Below are positions 14,232 to 57,079 of a stretch of 64,000 nucleotides of DNA, piece by piece. The translations under genes and the position numbers were made by a program. Position 1 is the first letter of the stretch. Each line of letters starts with the position of its first letter. The stretch comes from Chloranthus sessilifolius. Lineage: Eukaryota > Streptophyta > Magnoliopsida > Chloranthales > Chloranthaceae. The notes below the pieces were generated by a model. The model was not told the origin of the DNA. It was given only the letters and a program-made list of their open reading frames with translations, and did no database searches. The stretch lies in assembly GCA_021018995.1 (NCBI GenBank), contig CM037591.1, positions 4,966,001-5,030,000 on the forward strand, given 5' to 3'.

Positions 14232-14648
14232 AATTGATAATTCTATCTACATAAACATCAAAATAACGATTACAAACCTCAACTTTTGATTAGAAAGTAG
14301 AAACCATAGAATTTAACTAGAACCCTTTTGTATTTTTTGATCAATTAAGGAATCCTAAAATTCAAAAAACGTAAAATTCAACTAGAAATCGGAAGTCTAA
14401 GTAATAAGCTCTAATGATCAATTAAAAAAACTAGAATTCGAGAAACCCTAAGATCAAATTATAAACCCCAAAATTGATGTAAAAACCCTAATTCAAAACG
14501 ATTAGCTGGCTCCTGGTGGTAAGAGTAGGCGTCGGCCTCCTCGCAAGTTTTCAAAATTTTATGACAGATCACTTGTAAAACGGATACAATGTAGATAGAT
14601 ATATGCGCTGGCTTTGAAGATGTAGACGGTTAGGAATGGCGAACATCT
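14232..14648. promoter_or_regulatory. Upstream region of ATG13, with a foldback sequence at its outer edge
   Basis: About 330 bp of AT-rich unique sequence precede the ATG13 start (read on the minus strand) and probably hold the 5'UTR and core promoter; I see no decisive TATA box. At 14566-14610 a run like ATCACTTGTAAAACGGAT is the inverted partner of 14668-14720, so a hairpin-forming element bounds the promoter about 340 bp from the start codon. Confidence 0.5.
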
Positions 14649-15442
14649 AGTTTTATGGCTGTAGTAATTGTATATATACTCTATCTTACATACGTTTTAC
14701 AAGTGATATATTCTAAGGTAAACACAAACAAACAAAAATCTATCATTATTTGCACCAGCTCGGCCGAGACGTATAGGGACCGATACAACACATATCGGAC
14801 TTTAAATCCGTAATCAAACGGGAGTTCATTTTTCATCCCAATCTTTCAAAAAATGAATTAATTCCACGTGGCACACGTCTTAAAAGTAATTCAAATTTTC
14901 CATAATAGACATTATGTTGAAAGCAACGTATCTGTATCGGGTATCGGTTTTGCCGATAATCAATGCGTGTCACCAATATGTGTTGGTATCGGCCAGTACA
15001 TCGTTATGGTGAAATTTATTTTTTTGTTTTTAAATCCTAAATGTATCATAAAATACTTATATTTAAACTATTAGATATATATTCTTTATTAAAAAAAATC
15101 AAATTTGGCGAATATTAGATGCGTATCAACTGATATTGTGTAGTATCAATTGATACCAATACATGATACCGATACCACCCCAATACTGGTATCGGTATCA
15201 GGGTGGTATCGGTATCAATTGGCCAAAATACCGATATGTATTGGTATCGGGCAATGCTTGATACCTTGGTTTAAGGGTGATTTGGGAGTCACTTTTTGGG
15301 ATGTACGTCATGTTCAATAAAAAATTGATGGTATACGCTCATGATCTCAAGATTCATTACGTGTAATGTAATACTCAGGCAAAAACTTATCTCGATCATC
15401 ATATCCTAAGCCAAAGTAGTCAATGGTGAACTTTTAGACTAG

Positions 15443-15534
15443 GTGAGAACCGGTTGAGCATTAGCTCAACTAGTATACTCTTCCCTTGTGAAGCAACAGG
15501 TCGTAGGCTCTAAACCTCACGCCTGCTCTCACCA
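15443..15534 (+). other. tRNA-like segment in tandem unit 1
   Basis: This 92-nt segment starts GTGAGAA and ends TCTCACCA, so its ends can pair like an acceptor stem. Inside are an A-box-like TTAGCTCAACTAG, an anticodon-arm-like CTTCCCTTGTGAAG and a T-arm-like segment before CCTCACGCC. The T loop lacks TTCGAAT, so this is not a normal tRNA gene. It looks tRNA-derived, as in a SINE head. Confidence 0.45.
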
Positions 15535-16516
15535 TGTGTGCGGCGAGTCTCCTCCCAGTGTGTTGTGCCAAAATAGATTTTCTCTACATGCAAATTTGTA
15601 AAGGCACTGCATCTGGGTTGTCTATGTCGTATGGTGTAACGACCCGGATTTATTATAGCCATCTAGGTTTATGGCTGTAATAAATTGTATATATACTCTA
15701 TCTTTAAATTCATTTTACAAGTGATATATTCTAAGCTAAACACAAACAAACAACAATAATACATTTAGTAGAGTAATAATATCATTATTTGGACCTGGTC
15801 TATTTGGACTGGCTCGGCTAAAGGGACCCGATACAATATATATATATATATCGGACTTTAAATCTGTAAATCAAACAGGAGATCATTTTTCATCCCAATC
15901 TTCCAAAAAATGGAGTAATTCCACATGGCACGCGTCTTAAAAGTGACTCAAAATTTACATAACAGACATTATGTTCAAAGCAACATATCTATATCTATAT
16001 CGGGTATCGATTTTGTCGATGATCAATATGTATCACCAATATGTGTTGGTATCGGCCAGTACATCGTTATGGGGAAATTTATTTATTTATTTCTAAATCT
16101 TTAAAGCATCATAAAATACCTATATTTAAACTATTAGATATTTTTTTTATAAAAAAAAATATATTCTTTATTAAAAAAATTAAATTTGGTAAATATTAGA
16201 TACGTATCAACCGATATTGTGCAGTATCAGCCGATACCAATACATGATACCAATACCACCCCAATACTGGTATCGGTATCAAGGTGATGGCGGTATCAAT
16301 TGGCCAAAATGCTGATACACATTGGTATCAGCCAATACTTGATACCTTAGTTCAAAGGTGATTTTGGAGTCACTTTTTGGGATGTATGTCATATTGGATA
16401 AATAATTGAATGTACGCTCATGATCTCAAGATTCATTACGTGTAATACTCAGATGAACACTTATCTCTGTCATCTGATCCGAAGCCAAAGCAGTCAATGG
16501 TGAATTTTTAGACTAC

Positions 16517-16608
16517 GTGAGAACCAGTTGAGCATTAGCTTAATTGATATACTCTTCCCATGTCAAGCAACAGGTCGTGGGCTCTAAACCCCACACCTGC
16601 TCCCACCA
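16517..16608 (+). other. tRNA-like segment in tandem unit 2
   Basis: Equivalent 92-nt segment with GTGAGAA at the start and TCCCACCA at the end. The end stem has one weakened pair compared with units 1 and 3. The T-arm-like part GTGGGCTCTAAACCCCAC is well paired. Confidence 0.4.
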
Positions 16609-17533
16609 TGTGTGCGGGTCTCCACCAAAATGGATCTTCTTTGTGTGCAATTTTGCTCAGGCATTACATCTGGGTTGTCTATGTCATATGGTATAACGAC
16701 CTGGATTTATTACAATCATCTAAGTTTATGGCTATAATAAATTGTATATATACTCTATCTTTACATTCGTTTTACAAGTGACGTACTCTAAGGTAAACAC
16801 AAACAAACAAAAATAATACATTTAGTAGGAGTAATAATACCATTAGTTGGACCAGCTCAGCCGACACGTAAAGGGACTTGATACAATATATATCGGACTT
16901 TAAATCCGTAAATCAAATAGGAGATCATTTTTCTTCCCAATCTTCCGAAAAATGGATTAATTCCACATGGCACACGTCTTAAAAGTGACTCAAAATTTAC
17001 CTAACGGACATTATGTTCAAAGCAACATGTCCAAATCGGGTATCAGTTTTGCCAATGATCAATACGTATCACCAATATGTGTTGGTATAGGCCAATACAT
17101 CGTTATGGTGAAATTTATTTATTTATTTTTAAACCTTAAAAGTATCATAAAATACCTATATTTAAACTATTTGATATTTTTTTAATAGAAAAATTATATT
17201 ATTTATTAAAAAAAATCAAATTTGGTAAATATTAGATACGTATCAACTGATATTGTGCAGTATCGGCCGATACCAATACATGATACTAATACCACCCCAA
17301 TACTGGTATCAATCAATTGGCCAAAATATCGATACGTATTGGTATCAGCCAATACTTGATACCTTGGTTCAAAGGTGATTTTGGAGTCACTTTGTGGTAT
17401 GTATGTCATGTTGGATAAAAATTTGATGGTACGCTCATGAGCTCAAGATTCATTACGTGTAATACTCAAAAAAAAACTTATCTTGGTCGTCTGAACCAAA
17501 GCCAAAGCAGTCACTAGTGAACTTTTAGACTAG

Positions 17534-17625
17534 GTGGGAACCGGTAGAGCATTAGCTCAACTGGTGTACTCTTCCCTTGTGAAGCAACGGGTTGTGGGCT
17601 CTAAACCCCACGCCTATTCCCACCA
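17534..17625 (+). other. tRNA-like segment in tandem unit 3
   Basis: Equivalent 92-nt segment with GTGGGAA at the start and TTCCCACCA at the end: seven perfect pairs with base changes on both sides relative to unit 1. A-box-like TTAGCTCAACTGG and T-arm-like GTGGGCTCTAAACCCCAC are present. Confidence 0.45.
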
Positions 17626-17743
17626 TGTGTGTGAGTCTCCTCCTAGTGTGTTGTGCCAAAACGGATCCTCTCTGCGTGCAAATTTTCACAGGCACTACAT
17701 ATGGGTTGTCTATGTCATATGGCATCCTCAAAAAATAAAAAAT

Positions 17744-29334: not shown

Positions 29335-30143
29335 GCGATACGACAATTATAAAAAAATCAAGATACAATATGGGGGCTATGTGTATTTAAAAATTATTTT
29401 AAACATATTTTTAGGTGTATTTTAAGTTAATAATCGTAAGAAATAAAAGAAGAAAACAAAAAAGAAACACAAAAAAAAACTTTTAGGGACTGATTTCAAA
29501 TAGGTAGGCTACGCGCTTTTAAATTCCCAGGTAGGCTCGTTTGATTCCTTATTCATCTTTGTTTCCGAAAAACCCTAAATCCCAAACTCGCAGTTTGATT
29601 TATTATTTATTTATTTATTTTTCTTTGGGAAACAACATGATAAGCATGCAGCCGTATCACTCAAGTATCAATATCCAATACGGATACAATACGGGTACGC
29701 TGCCAAAATGGAGTATTTGTGCTTCCTTGCCATAAAGTGACTTAAAAAAGTTACACTTGATTTATGGGTTGGGAGAACGTACATAAATCTGCCGATTTTC
29801 TTAAATGAGTTAGAGGTGATATAGGAGTCTTATTTGATTAGGAAAGTACTCGTTTCAATTTTATTAGATAAATTAGGAAAGTTAGAATAATTTATGAGTC
29901 TCGTGATTAATTGCCTACAAACTAGGAAAGCTGAGATTTATGAATACCAAGAGCTAAAATCCCAACTTGCAAATGGGGTTCGAGGGCAATGGTCAGGTCC
30001 CACCAAGTAAGTCAAGATTCTCCTATTTTCAAAGGACTGGAAATCCAATTATACTTGGTAGGGAAATCCTGTTCTACTTGGTAGGACCTGACCATTAACC
30101 CGGGGTATGAAGCTTATTCCTAATTAAGAAGTTGCAAATAAGT
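29335..30143. other. Non-coding spacer with a foldback
   Basis: No gene. A TATTTATTTATT-type run lies near 29600. At 29987-30103, ATGGTCAGGTCCCACCAAGT is matched by the inverted CTTGGTAGGACCTGACCAT, forming a hairpin with a loop of about 75 bp: a small MITE-like foldback. AAAGT at 30144-30148 is the left target duplication of the next element. Confidence 0.6.
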
Positions 30144-30665
30144 AAAGTTGTCACGACCCAAAATTCTACCCCATCCCGAGGGCTTAGAATTCCAAGTTAT
30201 GACCCGCATGCATCTCAGTTATGCTAAGCGGGCATACACATAACCAAAGTTCTTGCGCAAATAAGGTTCCACGAAATCCGTGAAAGCCAACAAATAAGGG
30301 TGAAATAAATGGGCAATCATGAATATGAATAAAGCGATAAATCTAAGAAATCTACAAATAAAATGGTAGTAAAGATTAGAGACAAATTTGATACAAGAAA
30401 GCATAGGGTCAACAATAATAATGTCCAACGAAACTCAATACCGAGTCTACAACAGTCAGTAATTAGCGCTCAGATCAAAATTGTCACCAAAGTCCTCTTG
30501 ATAATCAACGATGTTGCCCTCCCAAGGCTCTTGGTACTCGGCGCTCATGGAGTCAATGTCGTAGGATCAAGATAGCTGGCGTCTACTCCACCAATGTAAT
30601 CACATGCAACTATTAGATTTTCATGGGATGAGTTTACTCAGTCACGTAAATTCAGTGGATACACC

Positions 30666-31501
30666 CATAGTTGTCATAAGTGATCGCTTAAGCGATTTTA
30701 TGCCATCAAATCGCATAAGATGGCTTATGCGATTTGGCCATTATGCGATCGCTTACTAAAGTATGCGATCGCATAAGCCATAAAATTGCAATCGCATACT
30801 TAGTATACGATTGCATAATAATTCAAACACTTATTTTTTAATTTTATTTTTTTGCTTTTTGAGGTTCCATTGCCTTTATAAAATGGTGGGTTTGGTCCTC
30901 TACTCCTCACACAACTATTTTGGCTTTGACTTTCTCTCTAATCTCCATTCTTTACTCCGAATCTCCACTCATCTTTCCTATCTAATTTTTTTATTATTTA
31001 TTTTATGCTTTGTAATCATTTTTTTAGTGAATTAAATTGTTATAAACTTAGTTATATTAAATTGTTATAAACAACATCTTGCTTATGGAGCCAGTACAAA
31101 TGCTAGGGCTTGTAGAAAAGCTATTATGGAAATCCGAAAGGAAATAATGGAGTAGATGGACAAGCGTTTTAAGAAAACACATGATTAAGATGTTATTTTA
31201 GAAGGCTATATGGAAGATGATCATGATGATTATGAAGATGATAGATCTACACCATCAACGACCCAAAGTAGACAATGTTGGTATTCAGTATCAAAATTAA
31301 AGTTATAATTTTGAATATTAGTATGTAAAACTTCTGTTTTAAATGCACGAATGTCTATTTTTCCCTTCTATATACTTGAATACTTATTGTTAATTTATTT
31401 TTATTTATTTATTTATTTTTTGAAAAGAAAATAAAAGTATGCCATGGCTTAAGCGAAATTGAGCCAAATCGCTTAAGCGAAATTAAGCCATTTGACAACG
31501 A
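30666..31501. mobile_element. TIR element inserted in the left LTR
   Basis: Flanked by the direct repeat TGGATACACC (30656-30665 and 31502-31511). The ends are inverted (left GTTGTCATAAGTGATCGCTTAAGCG, shared core GTTGTCA and CTTAAGCG; right inverted equivalent at 31450-31500). The left sub-terminal part is packed with GCGATCGC/TATGCGAT palindromes. About 31085-31265 has short coding-like sequence (GASTNARACRKAIMEIRKE) but no full ORF. A duplication of 9-10 bp suggests a Mutator-like element; hAT cannot be excluded. Confidence 0.65.
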
Positions 31502-32263
31502 TGGATACACCACCAATTCACCCCATACTATTCAGGTGCATTGTCGGTGCACCACATAAGTGATAAACATAGTATAACAATGAAATATGAAAGAAGAAAA
31601 AAATAATCATGTGTATATCGTATAACTCATATCATAATCATAAATGCAGGACCATGAACTACACTCATATCATAATCATAAAGCCTTGGTGTGAAATCTC
31701 AGAAATCCTTGGTGTGAAGCCTTGAACCTCTATCCTCTTATTCCCTATTTTCTCTATTTATCATATGGTAATATCTTCCCTTGCTTTGATAAATCTCCAA
31801 AACCCCCCAAAAAAGAGAATTACTAGTTCCAACCTTTTGATCTACCCTTTTATTTGTTTTACTCCTTCAACCCATATTTATTCACTCGAGAGGAATCAAG
31901 AGACGATATCGTGATTATTGCTTGGTACCCTAAATTAGAACGAAACTCGAATCCTTCATCGGATCCGTTTTTCTAGATCGGGAAATGTTAATGCATGCGA
32001 AACGCTTAAGTTTATTTAATCTAATTGTTTTAATTAAATTTAGTAAGCTATTTTTGTGGATGGGTGATTTGAATATTTCCGTTGTTCGATCTAATCTAAA
32101 AGTTAATCCCAAATCGCATTAATTAGAGTTTTAACGTTTGCCCTGTGTCAGTATCACAAACCATGCTTTCCAAAGGACTTGGATGTACTTCGTGTGGCAG
32201 CCCATACTACCATAGAGGTGTTGCATCTGTACATGGATGCCTACATTCCGTGTTCCACGTGTC

Positions 32264-32425
32264 TAGGGTTGTGCATTTTTTGGACCGAACTGACCGAACC
32301 GTTGGGTTTGGTCCGGTTTGGACGAGTACTAGTTTGGGTTTGGTTTGAAAAAAAAGGGAAACCGAAAAGTTTGGTTTGGTTTCAGTTCCAAGCCGAAATC
32401 GACCGAACCGTATGTAATTTGTAAG

Positions 32426-32511
<86 letters not shown>

Positions 32512-32794
32512 CACGGGTTTTGATTAATTTTAAAGGGCATTTAAATACTACCCTTGTTTTATATAAAACCTTTTTAGCCTAGTCTTAAATCCTAAAGCAG
32601 TAAAGCAGAACTTATAGGAAAACCAGTTGAGAAGTTGAGAAAATTTTGATGTGCAAGTAGAACTTATAGGAAAACTGAAATTGACCGAACCGAATCGAAT
32701 CTAATCGAGTTGGTTCCAAACCAGTTTAAGAGTTGGACGGTTTGGTTTGTGGTTTTGGTCCAAAACCGACCAAACCGAACCGAATACACCCCTA
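32264..32794. mobile_element. hAT-like MITE inserted in the left LTR
   Basis: Ends TAGGGTTGTGCATTTTTTGG and the inverted ACCGAATACACCCCTA, rich in GGTTTGGTTTGG/CCGAACCGAA motifs. It is flanked by near-identical 8-mers CACGTGTC (32256-32263) and CACGTGAC (32795-32802). Length 531 bp including a long AT microsatellite (about 32430-32508). Non-coding; the TAGGGGTGT-type ends and 8-bp duplication fit the hAT superfamily. Confidence 0.75.
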
Positions 32795-33315
32795 CACGTG
32801 ACCGTGATGGAAACCCACCATGACTATGGCCTAAAGGTCTAAACCTCGTACCTTAACTCATATCTTATCCTATCATATTAGAACTTGGAGGTGATAGGGT
32901 CACCGTATATGCCACCATATACGAGCCTACACTGATTCGCACTCACCCTCCTCGGCATGATGTCTCATACCACCATGAGTTGTAAGGCATGTAAATACGA
33001 TGCATTCCTTGCTTCGATATCATCTCAGCGAATCACCACGCCCAAGCGTAGGCATGATTGCATACACTCACGCATTCCTAACTCACGATCATAACAAGGA
33101 TATAAGCATAGAATTATTATACTCAATGGATAAATTTACATTTGAGATTACATTATGATTATACGTATATAAATATTTACACAACACACCAATAAATATA
33201 GACTAAGGTAGTTAATAGTGTGATTTTGATGACGTGAATGTCAAAATTCGATTTTCACGAGGTATCGAATTTCTAACACTTGTTATCGAAGTGGTCGCAT
33301 TGAGGCGATAAAAGT

Positions 33316-33347
<32 letters not shown>

Positions 33348-33376
33348 TTATAAAATGCTCAAATAGAAAGATATTA

Positions 33377-33904
33377 TTTTAAAGGTTAAGTGAATCACGA
33401 CCATTGATCGAAATATGTATTAAAGATTGGTCGTGAGTAAAGTGAAATAAAAAGGTAAGTACAGTCGTTTGTTTGGACGAGAATCGATCAGTCGATTTTG
33501 GAATCAATCGGTCGAATTTAAAGCATTTTAAATTACACAGTGGTTCGATTCTGTTCAGAATCGATCAATCAGACACAAGGGTTGATTGATCGATAATAAA
33601 GGTTAATAAGCCCTTATAATTGGTCAATTGCCCAAATGTGTTTTAAAGGTTAAGTGAATCACGACCATCGATCGAAATATGTGTTAAAGTTTGGTCGTGA
33701 GTAAAGTGAAATAAAAAGGTAAGTACAGTCGTCTGTTTGGACGAGAATCGATCAGTCGGTTTTGGAATCGATCGGTCGAATTTAAAGCATTTAAAATTAC
33801 ACAGTGTTTCGGTTTTGTTCAGAATTGATCAATCAGGCACAAGGGTTGATCGATCGATCGATCAATCAGACACAAGGGTTAACAAGCCCTTATAATTGGT
33901 CAGT
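33377..33904. repeat. 264-bp tandem duplication within the left LTR
   Basis: TTTTAAAGGTTAAGTGAATC begins at 33377 and again at 33641; both copies run through GACGAGAATCGATCAGTCG to AACAAGCCCTTATAATTGG-type sequence. The right LTR seems to hold a single copy (about 37380-37640), so the duplication came after the two LTRs diverged. Confidence 0.75.
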
Positions 33905-35120
33905 TGCCCAATTGTATGTTTAATATATTAGTTACCTCCCTTATCTGTTTTAAGGTAAGTTATATAATTATTATAATATAACATTTAAGTATTAGTAATT
34001 TATATATTAATATAATAATATTACCTTATATAATTATTATAATATAACAAGTGTCAATAGCTTATATATTAATATATTAATATTACCTTATATAATTATT
34101 ATAATATTACAAGTGTCAATAGCTTATATATTAATATAATAATATAAGAATATGATGTAACCCCAAGTGTATATTAAATATAATAAAACCACAGGCGTAC
34201 TTGAGTGCTATAATAAAATATATTATATTGTAATCACTTATACCTCTATGCATCATTACACCTTAAAGTGTGTTTTATAATATAATATAGCTATCAACGG
34301 ATTGAATGCCAAGTTCAATTTAGAACATGGTGGGTCGATCGATCGATCGAATAGAAGGATCGATCAATCGATAATAGAGTGTCAGAAACAATTGTGGTTA
34401 AGTAACGCAGTTTGGTTATTAATTAAATTTTCTTAGATTCAATCGATCGAACGTAATAATCGATCGATCGACTTTTGAGATTTCTAAACATGTTAGGTTT
34501 TCGAGAATAAACCCAATGTATAATATAAAGTAATTAAAATTAATATTAAATCTAAGGATCATCATCATTTCATTCCTAAAAGCAATTTTATATGAAAATA
34601 AATCTATGATTCATTTCATTAGCCCGTCAATACGCGATCAAACGTATCCTATGCGACGAGATCTGAGAAGTACAAGATGGATTGGCGGGTACTCACCTCT
34701 TGAAGCGTGATCGGTAGAATAATGACGATTACGGTGGTAAGATCGGTGTTCGACGTTTCACGCGATGGCCCTTCCACGATTACTACGTCTTCTTCCTCGA
34801 TCTTGATGGCGGAAATAAATCGTGGTGTTTTTTGTGGAAGCACACACCAAAGGTTTTAGGGAAGAGATTAGGGGGTTTTAGAAAAGGTTGGGTGGAGAAG
34901 AAGAATTTGAGACGGCTAGGGTTTCTTAAGAAGAAGAAAAGAAAAGAGACGGCGAGGGTTTCTTAAGACGAAGAAAAGTGAAAAGAAGTATTGTGTAACT
35001 TAAACTTAAATAGAATTTTCTCAAATAGGTTAAGTTTCGGTGTGAAACACTAACACTGTGCACTGTGTAAAACACATTTAACACCATTAAATAAATTAGA
35101 AAATAATTCGGGTCGTTAAA

Positions 35121-35710
35121 TTCTCCCCCCTATAATATTTTCGTCCTCGAAAATTATGTACCTGTGGTGGTGAGCTCCGAGTACTTCTCCAAAGTCTTGG
35201 CTTCTCGTTCCCAAGTGGCTTCCTTTGGTGAATGATGTTGCCACTGTACCTTGACGAAGCGTATGGATTTACCCTTGACGAGCTTCTCCATTCGATCTAT
35301 GACACGAATCGACTTTTCTATGATGGTCAGATCATCCCTGACTTTAGTCGGCTCGATATCAACGACGTGAGATGGATCAGGCAGGTATTTTCGCAAGATG
35401 GAGACGTGAAACACATTATGCATACTGGTGAAGTGTTTCGGAAGTGAAATTCGGTAGGCCACCTCGCTGATGCGATCTGTGATAACGAAGGGTCCCACGT
35501 ATCTCGGACTTAGTTTTCCCCGCATTCGAAAACGTATGATTTCTTTAATCAGTGACACACGGATGAAAGCCAAATCACCAATTTCAAATTCTATCAAGCG
35601 TCGTCGACTGATGGCATAGGCTTTCTGACGGTCATGAACTTTTTTCAACCTCTGTCGGATACTTGAACCTCTTCGATTGTGGGTTGTACGAGTTTCACCC
35701 CAAGCACTAA
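35121..35710 (-). mobile_element. Gypsy integrase C-terminus with chromodomain, between the inverted LTRs
   Basis: The minus-strand frame 35648-35154 (164 codons) is the end of a chromovirus-type pol. It has the integrase C-terminal segment (EIGDLAFIRVS, GKLSPRYVGPF, HNVFHVSILRKY) followed by the chromodomain-like VKVQWQHHSPKEATWERE. The polypurine tract follows, then the left LTR. Upstream in element order, the pol sequence stops abruptly at 35711, where the opposite-facing LTR begins. Only the 3' end of the coding region is kept. Confidence 0.85.
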
Positions 35711-38409
35711 TGTAATGACTCGAATTTTTTTCGAATTTATTTAATGGTGTAGATGTGTTTTACACCGTGCACATTGTTATTGCTCCACACCGGAACCAAA
35801 CTTATTTGAGAAAATTTTATGTAAGTTTAAGTTATGCAATACCTCATTTCACTTTTCTTCTTCTTAAGAAACCCTAGCCGTCTCTTTTCTTTTCATCTTA
35901 AGAAATCCTAGCCGTCACAACTTCTTCTCCACCCACCCTTTTCTAAAATCCCCTAATCTCTTCCCTAAAATCTTTGGTTTGTGCTTCACAAAGAACACCG
36001 CGATTTATTTCCGCCGTCAAGATTGAGGAGGAGGAAGACGGAGTAATCGGGGACGAGCTATCGCTTAGAACGTCGATCTTACTACCGTAAATCACCGTTG
36101 TTCTACTGATCACACTTCAAGAGGTGGGTATTCGCCAATCCATCTTGTACTTCTCAGATCCCGTCGCGTAGGATACGTTCGATCGCGTATCGACGGGCTA
36201 ATAAAATGGACCATAGATTTATTTTCATAACAAATTGCTTTTGGGAATGAAATGATGATCCTTAGTTCAAATATTAATTTTAATTACTTTCTGTTATATG
36301 TTGGGTTTATTCTCGGAAACCTAACATGTTCAGAAATCTCAAAAGTTGATAGATCGATTATTATGTTCGATCGATTGAATTATGAGCAAATTGTGACAGT
36401 GCGCTAGTTTTGTTGCTCAATCGATTGAGCTTTGCCTTATAATCGAGTATATGATAGGACTTGTGGTTAATGCTTACTTGATTGATTTTGTTTGGTAATG
36501 GGAGGTCAGTTGAGACTCGTGCTTATATTATATTGTATTCAAGAGTGGAGTTATAAAATATATTATATTTTATCTTATTTAATCTCTTTTTAACTAATAA
36601 AGCATTATATGTTTTATATTATATGATTATTACTTTCCTTCATACGTCACCCTACTTAAGCATTAAAATATTATATTAATGTAATTGTTTTATAAGACAT
36701 GAATGATAGTATTTTATTAATATAACCCACCTTATTCTAATGATTGGGCACACAAAACTCTGTTTCAAATTCTTTTCATGTCGATCGATCGATTCTGAAC
36801 CAAACTAACCGTGTATACTTTATTAAATTCGATCGATCGATTCCTTATGTTCGATCGATCGATTCTGGGCAAAATTGATTAATAACTAAACTGCTCTATT
36901 TAACTACAATTATTTCTGACACTTTATTATAGTGATTGATCGATCATTCTGTTCGATCGATCGACCCACCCTATTCTGGATTGAACTTGGCCTTCAATCC
37001 GTTGATAGCTATATTATATTATGTAATGATGCTTAGAAGTATAAATGATTACAATATAATATATTTTGTTATAACACTCAATACGCCTGTGACTTTATTA
37101 TATTTAATATACACTTGGGGTTTTGTTATATCAGCTTACGTCATAGAACTAAGGAAATGTTGCATATTATATTATTATATTAATATATACGTTACTGACA
37201 CTTGTTATATTATAATAATTATATAAGGTAATATTAATATATAAGCTACTGACACTTGTTATATTATAATAATTATATAAGGTAATATTATTATATTAAT
37301 ATATAAGTCACTGACACTTAAATGTTATATTATATATATTATAATAATTATATAACTTACCTTAAAACAGATGAGTACTATTAGATTAAGCATACATTTG
37401 GGCAATTGACCAGTTATAAGGGCTCGTTAACCTTTATTATCGGTCGACCCTTGTGTGTGATTGATCGATTTTGAACAGAACTGAACCACTGTGTAATTTA
37501 AATTGCTTTAAATTCGACCGTTCAATTCTCATCCAAACAGACGACTGTACTTACCTTTTTATTTCACTTTACTCACGACCAAACTTTAATATACCTTTCG
37601 ATTGATGGTTGTTATTCACTTAACCTTTAAAATAATAATATCTTTCTATTTGAGCATTTTATAATAATACTATATATATATATATGACTTTATCACTTTA
37701 ACGCGACCACTTCGATAACACGAAGTGTTAGAAATTCGATGCCTCGTGAAAATCGAACTTTGACTTTTACGTTTTCAAAATCACACTATTATTTACCTTA
37801 GTCTATATTTATTGGTGTGTTGTGTAAATATTTATATACGTATATCCATAATGTAATCTCAAATGTAAATTTATCCATTGAGTAGGATAAGTCTATGCTT
37901 CTATCCTTGTTATGATCATGAGTTAGGGATACGTGAGTGTATGCGATCATGCCTATACTTGGGCGTGGAGATTTGCTGAGATGGTATCGAAGCAAGGAAT
38001 ACATCGTATTCACATGCCTTACAACCCATGGTGGTATGAGACATCATGCCGAGGAGGGTGAGTGCGAATCAGTGTAGGCTCGTATATGGTGGCATATACG
38101 GTGACCCTATCGCCCCCGAATTCTAATATGATAGGATAAGATATGAGTTAAGGTACGAGGTTTGAACCTCTAGGCCATAGTCATGGTGGGGTTCCTTTCA
38201 AGATCACATGAAACTCAGAATGTAGGCATTCATGTACGGATGCAATACTTCTATGGTAAGTATGGGCTGTCACACGAGGTACATCTAAGTTACTACGGAA
38301 CCCGTCCCTTGTGAAGCGTGGTTTGTGAAGCTTACCGCACGATGGTTTGCTGTGGATTCAGGTAATAAAAGTATGATAAGATATGCACGAGTATGATAAT
38401 AAGACACCG

Positions 38410-39718
38410 CTGGAAGGCTATCTGTGGAACGTGGCCTTCGTATGCTAAATGGATCAGGTTCAAGTGGGGTTGCGGTTCTCAGATAAGGTTTTGGGATGAT
38501 ATTTGGGTTCGTGTTTGTCTTAAAACCATATTTCCGGACATCTATGCCATTTCCACCAATCAAGGGGGGGGGGGGATCAACGATTTTGTCACGGAATCAA
38601 GTGGGGGTAGGATATGGGAGGTCTCTACCCGCCGATCTCTAAGGTGCGAGGGGATAGTCTCCTTTACCAGCCTACTGTCTATGACTTATTCTACCCTCCC
38701 TAATGTGCAGCGTCAAGACCAGCGGATATGTGCTGCTAACAAAGATGGCAGTTTCAGCGTGAAGACTTATTATCGGATGTTCACATGCCGTCCTCTTATC
38801 AAATTCCAAGGAGCTATGTTGTGGAAAACGGGGATCCCTCCTAAGGTTAGATTCTTTGCTTGGTCGTTACTCAAAGGGAAAGTCCTAACCATTGGTCAGC
38901 TCATCCGTCGGGGAAAGGAGATGAACAATCTATGTGTAATGTGTCACCAACAGAAAGAGTCTGCTGAGCACTTGTTTCTCCACTGTCAGATGGCCTACAA
39001 GGTCTGGGGTGCGATTCTTAGGTTTTTTGGCATCGTTTGGGTTACCCCTCCAACTACTGCCCAACAACTCTTTTCTTGGACAACCTCAAGGGGTTAGGGG
39101 AGCTGGCCAGGTACCTGCTTCCAAAGCAGGAGACTTGAGTTCGAATCCCCTCCCGCCCTTGAGGCCACCCTAGGGATTTATATCCATTTGCTAACTCGAC
39201 TTGTACTGAAATAGGGGTGCGCATGTGCCCTTGGGATTAGGCGGGTGCTCTAAGAGGCCCGGGTGCGCATGTGCCCTTGGGATTAGGCGGGTGCTCTAAG
39301 AGGCCCGGGTATCCAAGTTATAAAAAAAAAAAACTCTTGGCTTGGACATCGGCCAGTTTTGAGGATCAGCTTCGGCACTGGCACTACTGGAAGGTGGCGT
39401 TCTTCGCGGTCTGTTGGAATTTATGGCTTGAAAGGAATGAAAGGACCTTCGCTAATAAACTGAGTCCGATGGGGGTGGTCATCAAGTCTGTTAGGGATTG
39501 TATGTCTATGTGGGTTTCCAGCCATTGGGACGCTGATGGGGAGCAGTCCGCGCCTTGGGATCCGGGTTAGATTTTAGTAGCTCTGTCCCTGTCCTAGAGG
39601 CTGTGCCGGGGTCTTGGATTGTTTTGTTTTTTAGTTTTTGTGTTTGCTTTTTGTGTCGGTGTAAGTTTATTCAACGTCTTGCTGGTTTTTAATACTATTA
39701 CTATTACCGATAAAAAAA
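38410..39718 (+). mobile_element. 5'-truncated L1-type LINE inserted in the right LTR, with its own SINE insertion
   Basis: AAGACACCG flanks it (38401-38409 and 39719-39727). The frame 38393-39097 encodes the end of ORF2: GCGSQIRFWDDIWV, WKTGIPPKVRFFAWSLLKGK and the zinc-binding CVMCHQQKESAEHLFLHC of the zf-RVT domain. After the SINE, the frame resumes at 39337 and ends with WNLWLERNERTFAN and a stop at 39568. A 3'UTR and a short A tail (39712-39719) close it. Apart from the SINE the reading frame looks well kept, so the insertion is younger than the LTR. Reverse transcriptase and endonuclease domains are lost by 5' truncation. Confidence 0.88.
39083..39332 (+). mobile_element. tRNA-derived SINE inserted in the LINE
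   Basis: About 250 bp with a pol III promoter: A-box-like GAGCTGGCCAGG (39101-39112) and B box GAGTTCGAATCCCC (39137-39150), then an unrelated body and an A tail (39322-39333). Flanking copies ACTCTTTTCTTGGACA (39067-39082) and ACTCTTGGCTTGGACA (39333-39348) are a 16-bp target duplication with two differences. The body holds a 46-bp tandem duplication (GGGTGCGCATG at 39215 and 39261). I do not recognise the family. Confidence 0.85.
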
Positions 39719-40353
39719 AGACACCGTTGTCTAGGGCAGCATAAGATTAGGAACTTAAGTCTCTGTATGTGTCGTTCCTTGCATAGCCACCGTAAGGGCA
39801 ACACCGTCTTCAGTCAAGACGGGTCTTTGGGAGATAGAGTTGAGTCGCAAACCGCCCCTGTGACTGGATGAGGTGTATGATGAGTATGATATAGAGGGCT
39901 TTATGATATGGTGGTATGATACTATGGTGATCCTCATATGGTAGCTACGAATGTTGATTTCATTGACTCCGTGAGCGTCGAGTATCAAGAGCCTTGGGAG
40001 GGCAACTTCGCTGGTTATCAAGAGGACTTTGGTGTTGATTTTAATCCGAGCGCCGATTACTGACTGATGTAGACTTGGTATTGAGTTTCGTTGGATATTA
40101 TTATTGTTGACTCTATGCTTTCTTGTATCGGATTTGTCTCTGACCTTTATTGGATTTATCGCTTTTGTTCATATTCGTGGTTGCCATTTGTTTCACTTTT
40201 ATTTGTTGGCTTTTACGGATTTCGTGAAACCTTATTTGCGCAAGAACTTTGATTATGTGTATGTGCGCTTAGCGTATCTAGGATGCGTGCGGGTCTTAAC
40301 TCAGAATTCTAGGCCCTTCGGGATGGGGTAAAATTTCGTGTCTTAACAAAAGT

Positions 40354-42963
40354 ATTATAGGAAGACAAGATTTTCTTGAATAAAATTCTCTTTGTTTTAT
40401 GCGTGAAAACTTGAAGTTATCTTAGCGGATGAGAACCGCAAGTCTTTTCTTCTTGTTCAATATTTTGCATAAAAGGTGAGTTATATTATTAAATTCTGAT
40501 TTTTTTTATTTTGAATCTTCTCCTATACAACTCTACATCACAAAATTTGGTAAGATTTTACATAATAGGGAGGGTTGGTCCTATCTTGGGCACAAGCTGA
40601 CACATGCTTTGTTTATCCAAGTGGTTGGCTTTGAGATTAGCTTCCCATGCACAAGTTGAAAGAAAACATCTTGTCAATCCCTATGGCTTCTTAGTTGACC
40701 AAATCTCCAACAGAGATGATCTGCAATCACACTGATTGGGTCTGAGTACGTAGTAACCTGAGTTTGAGATTAAGGTAGTCGCATTTCCTCTCATTGGTTC
40801 TTTTTTTTTTTGTTTGGAGGGAGCGAGCGATTGTCTTTTTCCTGCACCAGTTCACATTAAGGCCTTGTTTGACAAAACTCATGAAATTTTTTATATGTTT
40901 TTTTTACTTTACATGGGTTTGTAAATAAATGAACTCATGGGAAGTTTTATTTCTAGAATTTTACAGTGGTTTGGTTTTTATTTTTTTCAGCTGTTTGGCT
41001 ACACTTGTGGAAAATTATTTTTGTAAGGTACCATAATCACACCATGTGAACCTGTAACCTCGCCCATGTCCTCGGGCCAAAATGTATTAATCGCTTAATT
41101 GATATTTGCTCCAACTTTTTACAAGATCGGTCTTGAGATCATGGGCATAACCTCGGATGGTTATTTTTTTTTCCGTGGTACACATCCCAAATAGTAACTC
41201 TAAACTCGTGATACATACATCAAGCTCAAATATGAATCAAGGGTATTTTTTGGAATCGGTGCCACATGAAATAAAAAAACCGCCTGATGATATACCCATG
41301 ATCTCAAGATGCATCGTGTGGAATATTGGGATAAAAAACAATCGCCAATCTTTTTCACTTATGATTTTTAGATCATGACCTTCAAATCAAGTGGCCCGGA
41401 TGGTTGGGTTGCATTTAAGGCATTTGATTTGAAGGTCATGATCTAAAGAACTACTATGCAAAAGAGTGGCGCAAAACTGAATCTCTATCGTATTGATTTG
41501 ACACAATCAAGTGTCGAATTAAATAATGGCTTTTGAGTGTATTGAATAATATGATGAAATAATGTTTGGTGCCAATCTTTTTCACGTAAGTTCCTTAGAT
41601 CATGAGCTTCAAATCAAATGGCTTTGATGGAGTTTTAACATGGCATGAGTTTCACATAACAATTGGCTCAGATGGTTGGGTTGCATTTAAGTCATTTGAT
41701 TTGAAGGTCATGATCTAAAGAACTACCATGCAAAAGAGTGGCGCAAAACTGAATCTCTATCGTATTGATTTGGCACAATCAAGTGTTGAATTAAATAATG
41801 GCTTTTAGTGTATTGAATAATATGATGAAATAATGTTCGGTGCCAATCTTTTTCACTTAAGATCTTTAGATCATGAGCTTCAAATCAAATGGCTTTGATG
41901 GAGTTTTAATATGGCACGCGTTTCACATAACAATTGTCGTAACATGTTACACCATGCTCACTGTCACTTTTGGGGATGTGCACCACGTGGAATTAACACC
42001 TGGCCGTCTGATACGTGGGCCATGATCTCAAGATTTATTGCGCTGAAGAAGGGACAAAAAACAATCTCCGTCATCTAATTCAATACAATCAACACTTTTA
42101 ATGGTGAAAACCTCGTCCGCAGAAACCAAATTTTCAATTGGTGCAAGAAAGGAGGGGCTTTGTTTTTTCCCCACAACATAGGCTGAAAATGTTTTCAGGA
42201 GATTTTTCCCTGGAAGTTCTGATTATCACCCTTTCAGCAAGATATACCATTATAATAGATTAAAAGATGGGGGCACAGGCAAACATCTGTCACACAAAGC
42301 CCAGAAATGGGTTAGTTCAGGGTTTGCTCATAAAAGGAATCTGAATTCTGAAAAATACTAGCAGGCCTTTTGATTGGAATAGCCAATCTGAAAAGTGCTT
42401 TTGTGCCATGTACTCCACCTAGATTCGTAAGTCATAACTTTTGATCTTAGTTGGTAACACCTAATATATACTCTCTTTTTATCCAGGGTATAGTCTCTTG
42501 CACCGTCTCTGTGTTAGTTGTTTTGATTTAATGTTTACAGATTCTATTTTAGCGATATTGTTGAACTTCATGTCAATTGTATTTTTTTAAGCTATATCTA
42601 TGTTGCTGTGAGCAGATATGTAGTGGTTGTTTTCCCTGTGATTAATTTTTATCTCCAATGCTTGGATCTGCTAGTGGATTTTTTATGTTTAAGCTATCTT
42701 AAAAAATAGTTTTACTTGAGTGCAAACTTAATCTGATATGGGGGTACGAATTACGATTTTGTACGGTCTCTAGAGATTAGATACTAGAGAAAAGTATGAT
42801 TCTTAATTTGATGGACTAGGCTGTTGAAAGAGAGTTTTCTTGTAAGTGACGGTTTTTTTATTTTTTTATTTTTCTAGTTACTGGTCAACATTTATTACCT
42901 AATTGAAAATGAGAGAAGTTCATTTGCTGCACACCTTATAACTGATAAATGTATTAATAGTAG
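40354..42963. other. Non-coding intron-like stretch with foldback and tandem repeats
   Basis: No gene. 40858-41100 begins with a TIR-like GGCCTTGTTTGACAAA. Arms AGATCGGTCTTGAGATCATG (41123) and CCATGATCTCAAGATGCATC (41298) form one copy of the window-wide foldback family. 41400-41943 is a 272-bp tandem duplication. 41990-42100 is another half copy. 42360-42950 is T-rich unique sequence resembling plant intron, with a donor-like GATTCGTAAGT at 42424 and acceptor-like TTTTTATCCAG at 42484; these are too weak to call an exon. Confidence 0.45.
41400..41943. repeat. 272-bp tandem duplication
   Basis: ATGGTTGGGTTGCATTTAAG starts at 41400 and again at 41672. The two units share the whole order through GTGGCGCAAAACTGAATCTC and GGCTTTGATGGAGTTTTAA, differing at scattered sites. 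Non-coding; it probably arose by unequal exchange within a foldback element. Confidence 0.85.
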
Positions 42964-52616: not shown

Positions 52617-53056
52617 TGTTAGAGTTTGAAATATCTTAGGCAATTTATTTCAATCAAAATAATATGATGCAAGGGTAGAACATATTTTGCCATCGGAGAG
52701 AATGATCCGCAATAGATGATTCCGATATATGCCGCTCGCTAGAACTCAAGGACAATTCTACCTCGCTTCTATCTCCCTCTATATGATGGGCACGATTGCA
52801 TTGAGTGGAGATGAAGAGGGACGCTGTCCTCTTTTATAGCATGCCCTTGAATCCTAACCCATCAAGGATTCAAGAGAGAGGTGTATCACTAGAAGATAGA
52901 GATTGGCTTACCACAAACCAATAAAGTTGAAACCAACTCCTTAAGTTGCGTGGAGTGGAATCACGTAACAAGAAAATCTCAAGGTCTTTAGTCAATCATG
53001 TTTTAATTAAAATAGGAAAAGGGTAATGTTATTGTGCGAGTCACAAATACCCAACA
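52617..53056 (-). repeat. 3' LTR of the gag-only element
   Basis: 440 bp, TGTTAG...CCAACA, preceded by GAATC. Its inner side has the purine-rich AAGTGAGAGAT (minus strand), a polypurine-like tract. Confidence 0.9.
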
Positions 53057-56641: not shown

Positions 56642-57079
56642 TGTTAGAGTTTTAAATATCTTAGGCAATTTATTTCAATCAAAATAATATGATGCAAGGG
56701 TAGAACATACCTTACCGCCGGAGAGAATGATCCGCAATAGATGATTCCGATATGCCGCTCGCTAGAACTCAAGGACAATTCTACCTCGCTTCTATCTCCC
56801 TCTATATGATGGGCACGATTGCATTGAGTGGAGATGAAGAGGGGACGTTGTCCTCTTTATGGCATGCCCTTGAATCCTAACCCATCAAGGATTCAAGGGA
56901 GAGGTGTATCACTAGAATATAGGGATTGGCTTACCACAAACCAATAAAGTTGAAACCAACTCCTTAAGTTGCGTGGAGTGGAATCACGTAACAAGGAAAT
57001 CTCAAGGTCTTTAGTCAATTATGTTTTAATTAAAATAAGAAAAGGGTAATGTTATTGTGTGGGTCACAAATACCCAACA
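56642..57079 (-). repeat. 5' LTR of the gag-only element
   Basis: 438 bp, followed by GAATC on the outer side; the inner side carries the tRNA-Met primer site two bases away. Confidence 0.9.

Follow-up and report, generated by a model that had tools for sequence, protein, structure and literature searches.

Two opposed long terminal repeats with outward U5 ends in Chloranthus sessilifolius and their possible origin as a single aberrant Ty3/Gypsy insertion

The window analysed here is a 64,000-nucleotide stretch of the Chloranthus sessilifolius genome (C8:4966001-5030000, contig CM037591.1 of assembly GCA_021018995.1; 2.17 Gb in 32 contigs), and our subject is a pair of retrotransposon long terminal repeats (LTRs) which lie in it in opposite orientation. 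LTR1 (30149-35120, minus strand; the 3' LTR of the minus-strand part) and LTR2 (35711-40348, plus strand) were found by boundary reading to face each other with their U3 starts inward and their U5 ends outward, and comparison of the window with itself gave reverse-complement matches between 30148-35122 and 35709-40349 at 78-87% identity per block. On the minus strand, LTR1 starts at 35120 with TTTAACGACC, in which the usual TG is replaced by TT, and its U5 end, ...GGGTCGTGACA, lies at 30149; LTR2 starts with TGTAATGACT at 35711 and ends in ...CTTAACA at 40348. Insertions, such as a long interspersed nuclear element (LINE) fragment in LTR2, account for part of the LTR lengths of 4.6-5.0 kb.

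Between the LTRs, read on the minus strand, a polypurine tract, TATAGGGGGGAGAA, abuts LTR1 and is followed by ~587 bp of the 3' end of pol. The tract region next to the U3 start of LTR1 (TATTATAGGGGGGAGAA in minus-strand letters) occupies 35121-35140, while the pol segment as a whole (35121-35707, minus strand) holds the integrase C-terminal SH3-like region, a weak chromodomain match and a 3' untranslated stretch. In a domain search the open reading frame at 35154-35648 matched SH3_Tf2-1 with an E value of 4.7e-22, above the curated cut-off, and Chromo weakly (E 3.7e-4, 20.8 bits, under the cut-off of 25.1). Other copies of the family were 84-87% identical to the window in the pol 3' end and ~71-86% identical in LTR pieces. 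Judged from its sequence, the element is an old Ty3/Gypsy LTR retrotransposon, probably of the chromodomain type. The locus does not have the layout of an ordinary element, whose LTRs point in the same direction and whose outer ends are one U3 and one U5. The original prediction for this stretch had given the same LTR coordinates, opposite orientation and outward U5 ends, all of which were borne out by the self-comparison and boundary reading, together with the motif AAAGT at both outer ends of the 10.2 kb, which was confirmed at five of five positions. Its spacer of ~590 bp of pol and polypurine tract held for ~587 bp, the last three bases (TAA, 35708-35710) belonging neither to the pol of relatives nor to the LTR.

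The two copies of AAAGT stand directly beside the U5 outer ends, at 30144-30148 on the left and 40349-40353 on the right, and the probability that two random 5-mers from the window agree completely is 0.0015, which speaks against the chance match that had been considered earlier. AAAGT is a putative target site duplication of 5 bp, with a caution over the right flank, which resembles a primer-binding region. The immediate flanks (29735-30143 and 40354-40855) had no second copy in the same genome among the matches listed, and there was no clear primer-binding site beside the U5 end at this locus. Two solo LTRs of the same family were also flanked by 5-bp duplications (GATTT/GATTT and AGAAT/AGAAC); a third single LTR, with AAATG/AAGTG, is less certain, its right side also being like a primer-binding start. 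One solo LTR, L037/L077 (G000:C3:146.23 Mb), lies in a repeat whose apparent unoccupied form is found in LTR1 of the window at ~32640-32680 and agrees by eye with the 5-bp duplication AGAAC.

Trees were built from family copies of the same genome for the middle of the LTR (31 rows, 725 columns), for U5 (27 rows, 411 columns) and for U3 (24 rows, 495 columns), overlapping duplicate loci having been removed beforehand. LTR1 and LTR2 were sisters in all three, with support of 100/99 (mid-LTR), 96/82 (U5) and 97/88 (U3) and path distances of 0.097, 0.14 and 0.14, respectively; these values fall between those of two ordinary direct pairs in the mid-LTR tree, which lay ~0.07 (C3:22.2 Mb) and ~0.19 (C10:5.58 Mb) apart. 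Among the matches listed, LTR1 was the best other match of LTR2 in the mid-LTR and U3 searches and LTR2 the best other match of LTR1 in the U3 search, and in the U5 search with LTR2, LTR1 was not among the best 40 scored matches. The sisterhood in three segments indicates one insertion rather than nested elements, and the two LTRs are accordingly read from their sequences as products of one insertion, or as homogenised soon after it by gene conversion. A pol tree was poorly resolved and uninformative on the relations of the loci.

Head-to-head pairs were also found elsewhere in the genome. The survey comprised six genome searches, with the best 40 scored matches of each considered and lower fragment matches omitted; all LTR queries came from the window and from other head-to-head loci, and the share of head-to-head pairs is biased upward by this choice. 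It covered at least 113 loci, nine of which had two listed LTRs within 15 kb: four direct, four head-to-head and one tail-to-tail. A control query from a young subfamily placed its best 40 matches in 37 loci, with three direct and no head-to-head pairs (hand count). Seven single LTRs were examined upstream of U3 and none had a palindrome: three were 3' LTRs in which pol continued past 447 and 473 (matched to 476-504, with 587 beyond the stretch examined), three had no pol match upstream of U3, and one (L076) went unmatched by the pol 3'-end query and showed by eye a same-sense join to apparent reverse-transcriptase sequence. The latter locus (L048/L076, G000:C2:119.736 Mb) carries an LTR without its first ~30 bp joined, again by eye, to pol of the reverse-transcriptase region, as if an internal deletion had reached almost to the U3 start. 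At the tail-to-tail locus, G000:C2:4748315-4752090, a plus-strand U3 fragment is followed by a minus-strand LTR whose intact U3 terminus borders non-pol DNA, and LINE-like sequence lies on its left side.

The locus at C11:12.37 Mb has the order LTR' (the inverted copy), polypurine tract, 447 bp of pol and an LTR beginning ~19-22 bp inside U3. Both of its U5 ends point outward against host DNA, there was no primer-binding site at the outer ends, and the right flank is not like one (8/20 positions). Its arms were sisters in the U3 tree (96/90), were not resolved as sisters in the U5 tree, and the right arm was the best match of the left at 90%, the next being 85% among the matches listed. C11:12.37 Mb reads as a second closed palindrome with the anatomy of the window. 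At C8:26.8 Mb, U5 points outward on both sides, U3 and pol are gone, and the arms were sisters in the mid-LTR tree (99/98) and not resolved in the U5 tree; we take it for an eroded case of a head-to-head pair. A separate inverted-repeat element, foldback or like a miniature inverted-repeat transposable element, occupies its centre (G000:C8:26814344-26815214; L063:6345-7215). The flanks of C11:12.37 Mb (GTCGA/ATCGT) and C8:26.8 Mb (CTTAA/CTTGT) agree at three of five positions each, which is supportive but weak, and most of the weight comes from the complete match at the window. The search for head-to-head pairs proposed earlier listed four, among them the closed C11:12.37 Mb pair with its 447-bp spacer, and the flanks fell short of full duplications at C11:12.37 Mb and C8:26.8 Mb.

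At C8:104.4 Mb the pair is part of a longer structure. Here LTR' and polypurine tract lead into 473 bp of pol, which is joined to an LTR without its first ~24 bp; beyond this plus-strand LTR come a primer-binding site, ~4.65 kb of internal sequence, a 12-21 bp LTR terminus and host DNA. The internal pol stops at ~468, nearly the same point that ends the inverted piece, and the left LTR is without its last 12 bp. Its arms were sisters in the mid-LTR and U5 trees (99/96 and 100/94) and in the U3 tree (90/86), and a single element that broke at one point in pol accounts for the locus better than two nested elements do. In the U3 tree C11:12.37 Mb grouped with L036, and C8:104.4 Mb with L050, an ordinary 3' LTR; in the U5 tree the window, C11:12.37 Mb and C8:104.4 Mb grouped together without strong support (85/80). 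As the U3 tree does not unite the head-to-head loci in a single clade, this arrangement probably originated on more than one occasion. Neither that tree nor the differing junctions support a palindromic lineage that is copied whole, or the mobile palindromic form that had been envisaged.

The pol breakpoints, counted from the 3' LTR, lie at 447 (C11:12.37 Mb), ~473 (C8:104.4 Mb) and ~587 bp (window) and are clustered near the polypurine tract. In all three loci with a readable junction the plus-strand LTR is joined to pol at most ~28 bp from the U3 terminus, as expected if a free end of complementary DNA (cDNA) took part. Microhomology, assessed by eye, was clear only at C8:104.4 Mb (TCTA), with none convincing at C11:12.37 Mb or at the window. 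An internal purine tract, GCGGGGAAAAC, lies ~400 bp from LTR1 and is a candidate cause of a possible breakpoint hotspot. Over their terminal 11 bp, U3 and U5 come close to being inverted repeats of each other (GGGTCGTGACA at U5, GGGTCGTTACA as the reversed U3 start); the base that separates them is the U5-type G at the right ends of C11:12.37 Mb and C8:26.8 Mb (both of the two readable closed pairs) and an A, of neither type, at the right end of the window.

The sister LTRs, the exact 5-bp match and the second closed locus with its weaker flank match argue for one insertion with two U5 ends. The reading we favour, at about even confidence, is that the window pair is an aberrant Ty3/Gypsy cDNA with two U5 ends which was inserted once. 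In this reading one cDNA, or the plus-strand strong-stop part of it, would have had its U3 end joined, while reverse transcription was under way or once it was complete, to pol at a point ~587 nt from the 3' LTR in the same or a co-packaged cDNA. Integrase could have made this join (autointegration), or reverse transcriptase could have switched strands. The joined molecule would carry U5 at both termini, and integrase would accept both of these ends and make the 5-bp duplication AAAGT. The molecule may already have consisted of just LTR', pol 3' end and LTR at integration; alternatively, it may have been a three-LTR dimer (LTR'-pol'-LTR-internal-LTR) whose internal region was later lost by recombination between direct LTRs, as in solo-LTR formation, a version which would need only known steps. 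The original prediction of one two-U5 product with one target duplication is supported in part: the anatomy, the sister LTRs, the matching flanks and the second closed locus are observed; the cDNA stage, the enzyme (whether integrase or copying back) and the dimer are what we infer. More tentatively, and with less than even confidence, we suggest that cDNAs with U3 joined to pol repeatedly escaped suicide and that two-U5 molecules were inserted with normal duplications, giving recurrent palindromes near a preferred pol breakpoint.

Several observations weigh against this origin. The TAA before LTR2 is unlike the pol of relatives: of 28 loci, 19 have AAGCATCTT at that place and none has TAA. 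Its AA might represent the final two bases of the polypurine tract. The TG of the U3 terminus is present but preceded by 2-3 bases without clear origin and not clearly pol, so the window junction is not a textbook strand transfer. The plus-strand LTRs of C11:12.37 Mb and C8:104.4 Mb begin ~19-25 bp inside the LTR. In the U5 search a copy at C2:2.64 Mb was 82% identical to LTR2, equal to the 82% between LTR1 and LTR2, and early gene conversion between the arms could mimic sisterhood. The flanks of C11:12.37 Mb and C8:26.8 Mb agree jointly at only six of ten bases (P ~0.03 at 0.28 per base), and the window right flank shares 11 of 20 positions with the primer-binding starts of relatives, a score which 2.4% of 20,000 random windows equal or exceed. 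Breakage and inversion of one integrated element also explain C8:104.4 Mb more directly.

The serious rival, to which we give a lower but real probability, is such a rearrangement after insertion. In an AAAGT-flanked minus-strand element, the segment that reaches from pol to the 5' LTR edge would have been inverted, and the internal region then deleted between the 11-bp near-identical LTR ends; in a variant, a double template switch in DNA replication would do both at once, the target duplication being original. C8:104.4 Mb, with its LTR', pol piece, plus-strand LTR, primer-binding site, internal region, short terminus and host DNA, resembles the intermediate and indicates that an element can also come to a head-to-head layout through internal breakage and inversion, the near inverted repeats at the LTR termini suit the second step, and sister LTRs are also predicted. 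The right flank is more like the primer-binding region than 97.6% of random windows are, which is a further caution, and the later inversion that had been named at the outset is kept as an alternative. Against it, two rare events are required with breakpoints close to the LTR edge, and LTR2 of the window has a full U3 start, so that only a duplicated break would have left a terminal residue for the second step. The U5-type base at the right ends of C11:12.37 Mb and C8:26.8 Mb also counts against it, the A of the window being of neither type, and a simple inversion does not explain the shortened left LTR of C8:104.4 Mb. Homologous recombination between local LTRs alone was rejected by reasoning, as it cannot bring a U5 end to both host flanks.

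Plant genomes abound in nested insertions, and this, together with the C2:2.64 Mb copy as near to LTR2 as LTR1 is in the U5 search, favours two elements of one family, a plus-strand copy nested in the pol of a minus-strand copy and trimmed later, with AAAGT a coincidence. We regard this as improbable: the LTRs are supported sisters in three segments and mutual best matches among those listed (LTR2 to LTR1 in mid-LTR and U3, LTR1 to LTR2 in U3), and the ACTAA left of LTR2 differs from the AAAGT on its right. As the main explanation it was rejected because of the sister LTRs, which likewise disfavour the two separate insertions raised in the original prediction. There is similarly little probability that only the head-to-head join is real and that the right AAAGT is decayed internal sequence (AAGTGG..., from the primer-binding region) that belonged with a truncated 5' LTR. 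The 11/20 resemblance given above is in its favour; however, the primer-binding core TGGTATCA follows U5 intact in L034/L062, L057 and L058 and nearly so in L053 while only half of it is matched at the window, 1.65 kb of the right flank had no match at E 0.1 to the family internal sequence compared, and the first 500 bp had no other copy among the matches listed. Long inverted repeats can be misassembled, and an artefact joining two ordinary copies is on that general ground conceivable, but very improbable, as the arms differ by 10-14%, well above what usually confuses assemblers, are sisters, and have a counterpart of the same form at a second locus.

Autointegration is regarded as a suicide route for retroelement cDNA. 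Inverted two-LTR circles arising from it are known in retroviruses and Ty1, according to the part of PMC4751563 that treats them (citing Shoemaker 1980 and Garfinkel 2006). As described there, such circles share with the window two inverted LTRs and an LTR U3 end that is joined to a site within the element; in contrast to these extrachromosomal forms, the window holds a short chromosomal LTR-pol-LTR structure with matching 5-bp flanks, from which most of the internal region is gone. Autointegration-type inverted LTRs being known, the chromosomal palindromic insertion with a target duplication suggests itself as a variant. In titles and abstract openings, with few subscription journals among them, we recognised no report of U3-to-U3 LTR pairs that recur in chromosomes and carry target duplications.

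Plant Ty3/Gypsy solo LTRs likewise have LTR termini and a 5-bp duplication, and their formation may be the last step of the dimer version, whereas the window has two opposite LTRs, a pol remnant and U5 at both outer ends. Ordinary copies of the family share the pol 3' end at the identity given above but have LTRs in the same direction, with one U3 and one U5 outer end. Foldback and long terminal inverted repeat elements have long inverted arms and a short spacer in common with the window, but its arms are retrotransposon LTRs, and there was no evidence of movement as a unit. If the favoured origin is true, palindromic insertions that became fixed with their target duplications would preserve autointegration-type events as fossils in the genome, two U5 ends would suffice for concerted integration in vivo, and a hidden source of long inverted repeats would exist, with hairpin RNA, small RNA and chromosome instability as possible consequences. 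Ordinary annotation would class such insertions as solo LTRs or nested elements. The pattern of U3-to-U3 sister LTRs with a 0.4-0.6 kb pol 3'-end spacer and 5-bp flanks is searchable in any plant genome, and the loci suggest that a product of retrotransposition regarded as a dead end can sometimes still insert.

Other features of the window were recorded alongside the LTR pair. The LINE fragment in LTR2 (38410-39717, plus strand), with a zf-RVT domain and an A-rich tail, is a later insertion flanked by the 9-bp duplication AAGACACCG at 38401-38409 and 39718-39726, and a stretch inside it (~39080-39332) resembles by eye a tRNA-derived short interspersed nuclear element. In LTR1, the part at 30559-32176 had no blast match to LTR2, and ~30680-31500 has repeated AAGCGAT/ATCGCTTAAG motifs at both ends and is perhaps an inserted element. 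Outside the pair, a tandem direct duplication with units of ~1 kb, ~82% identical, lies at 14644-17725, and direct 440-bp repeats of 95% identity, 4 kb apart (52617-53056 and 56642-57079), are possibly the LTRs of a younger element. The window also carries eRF1 and ATG13 genes, as identified by domain search.

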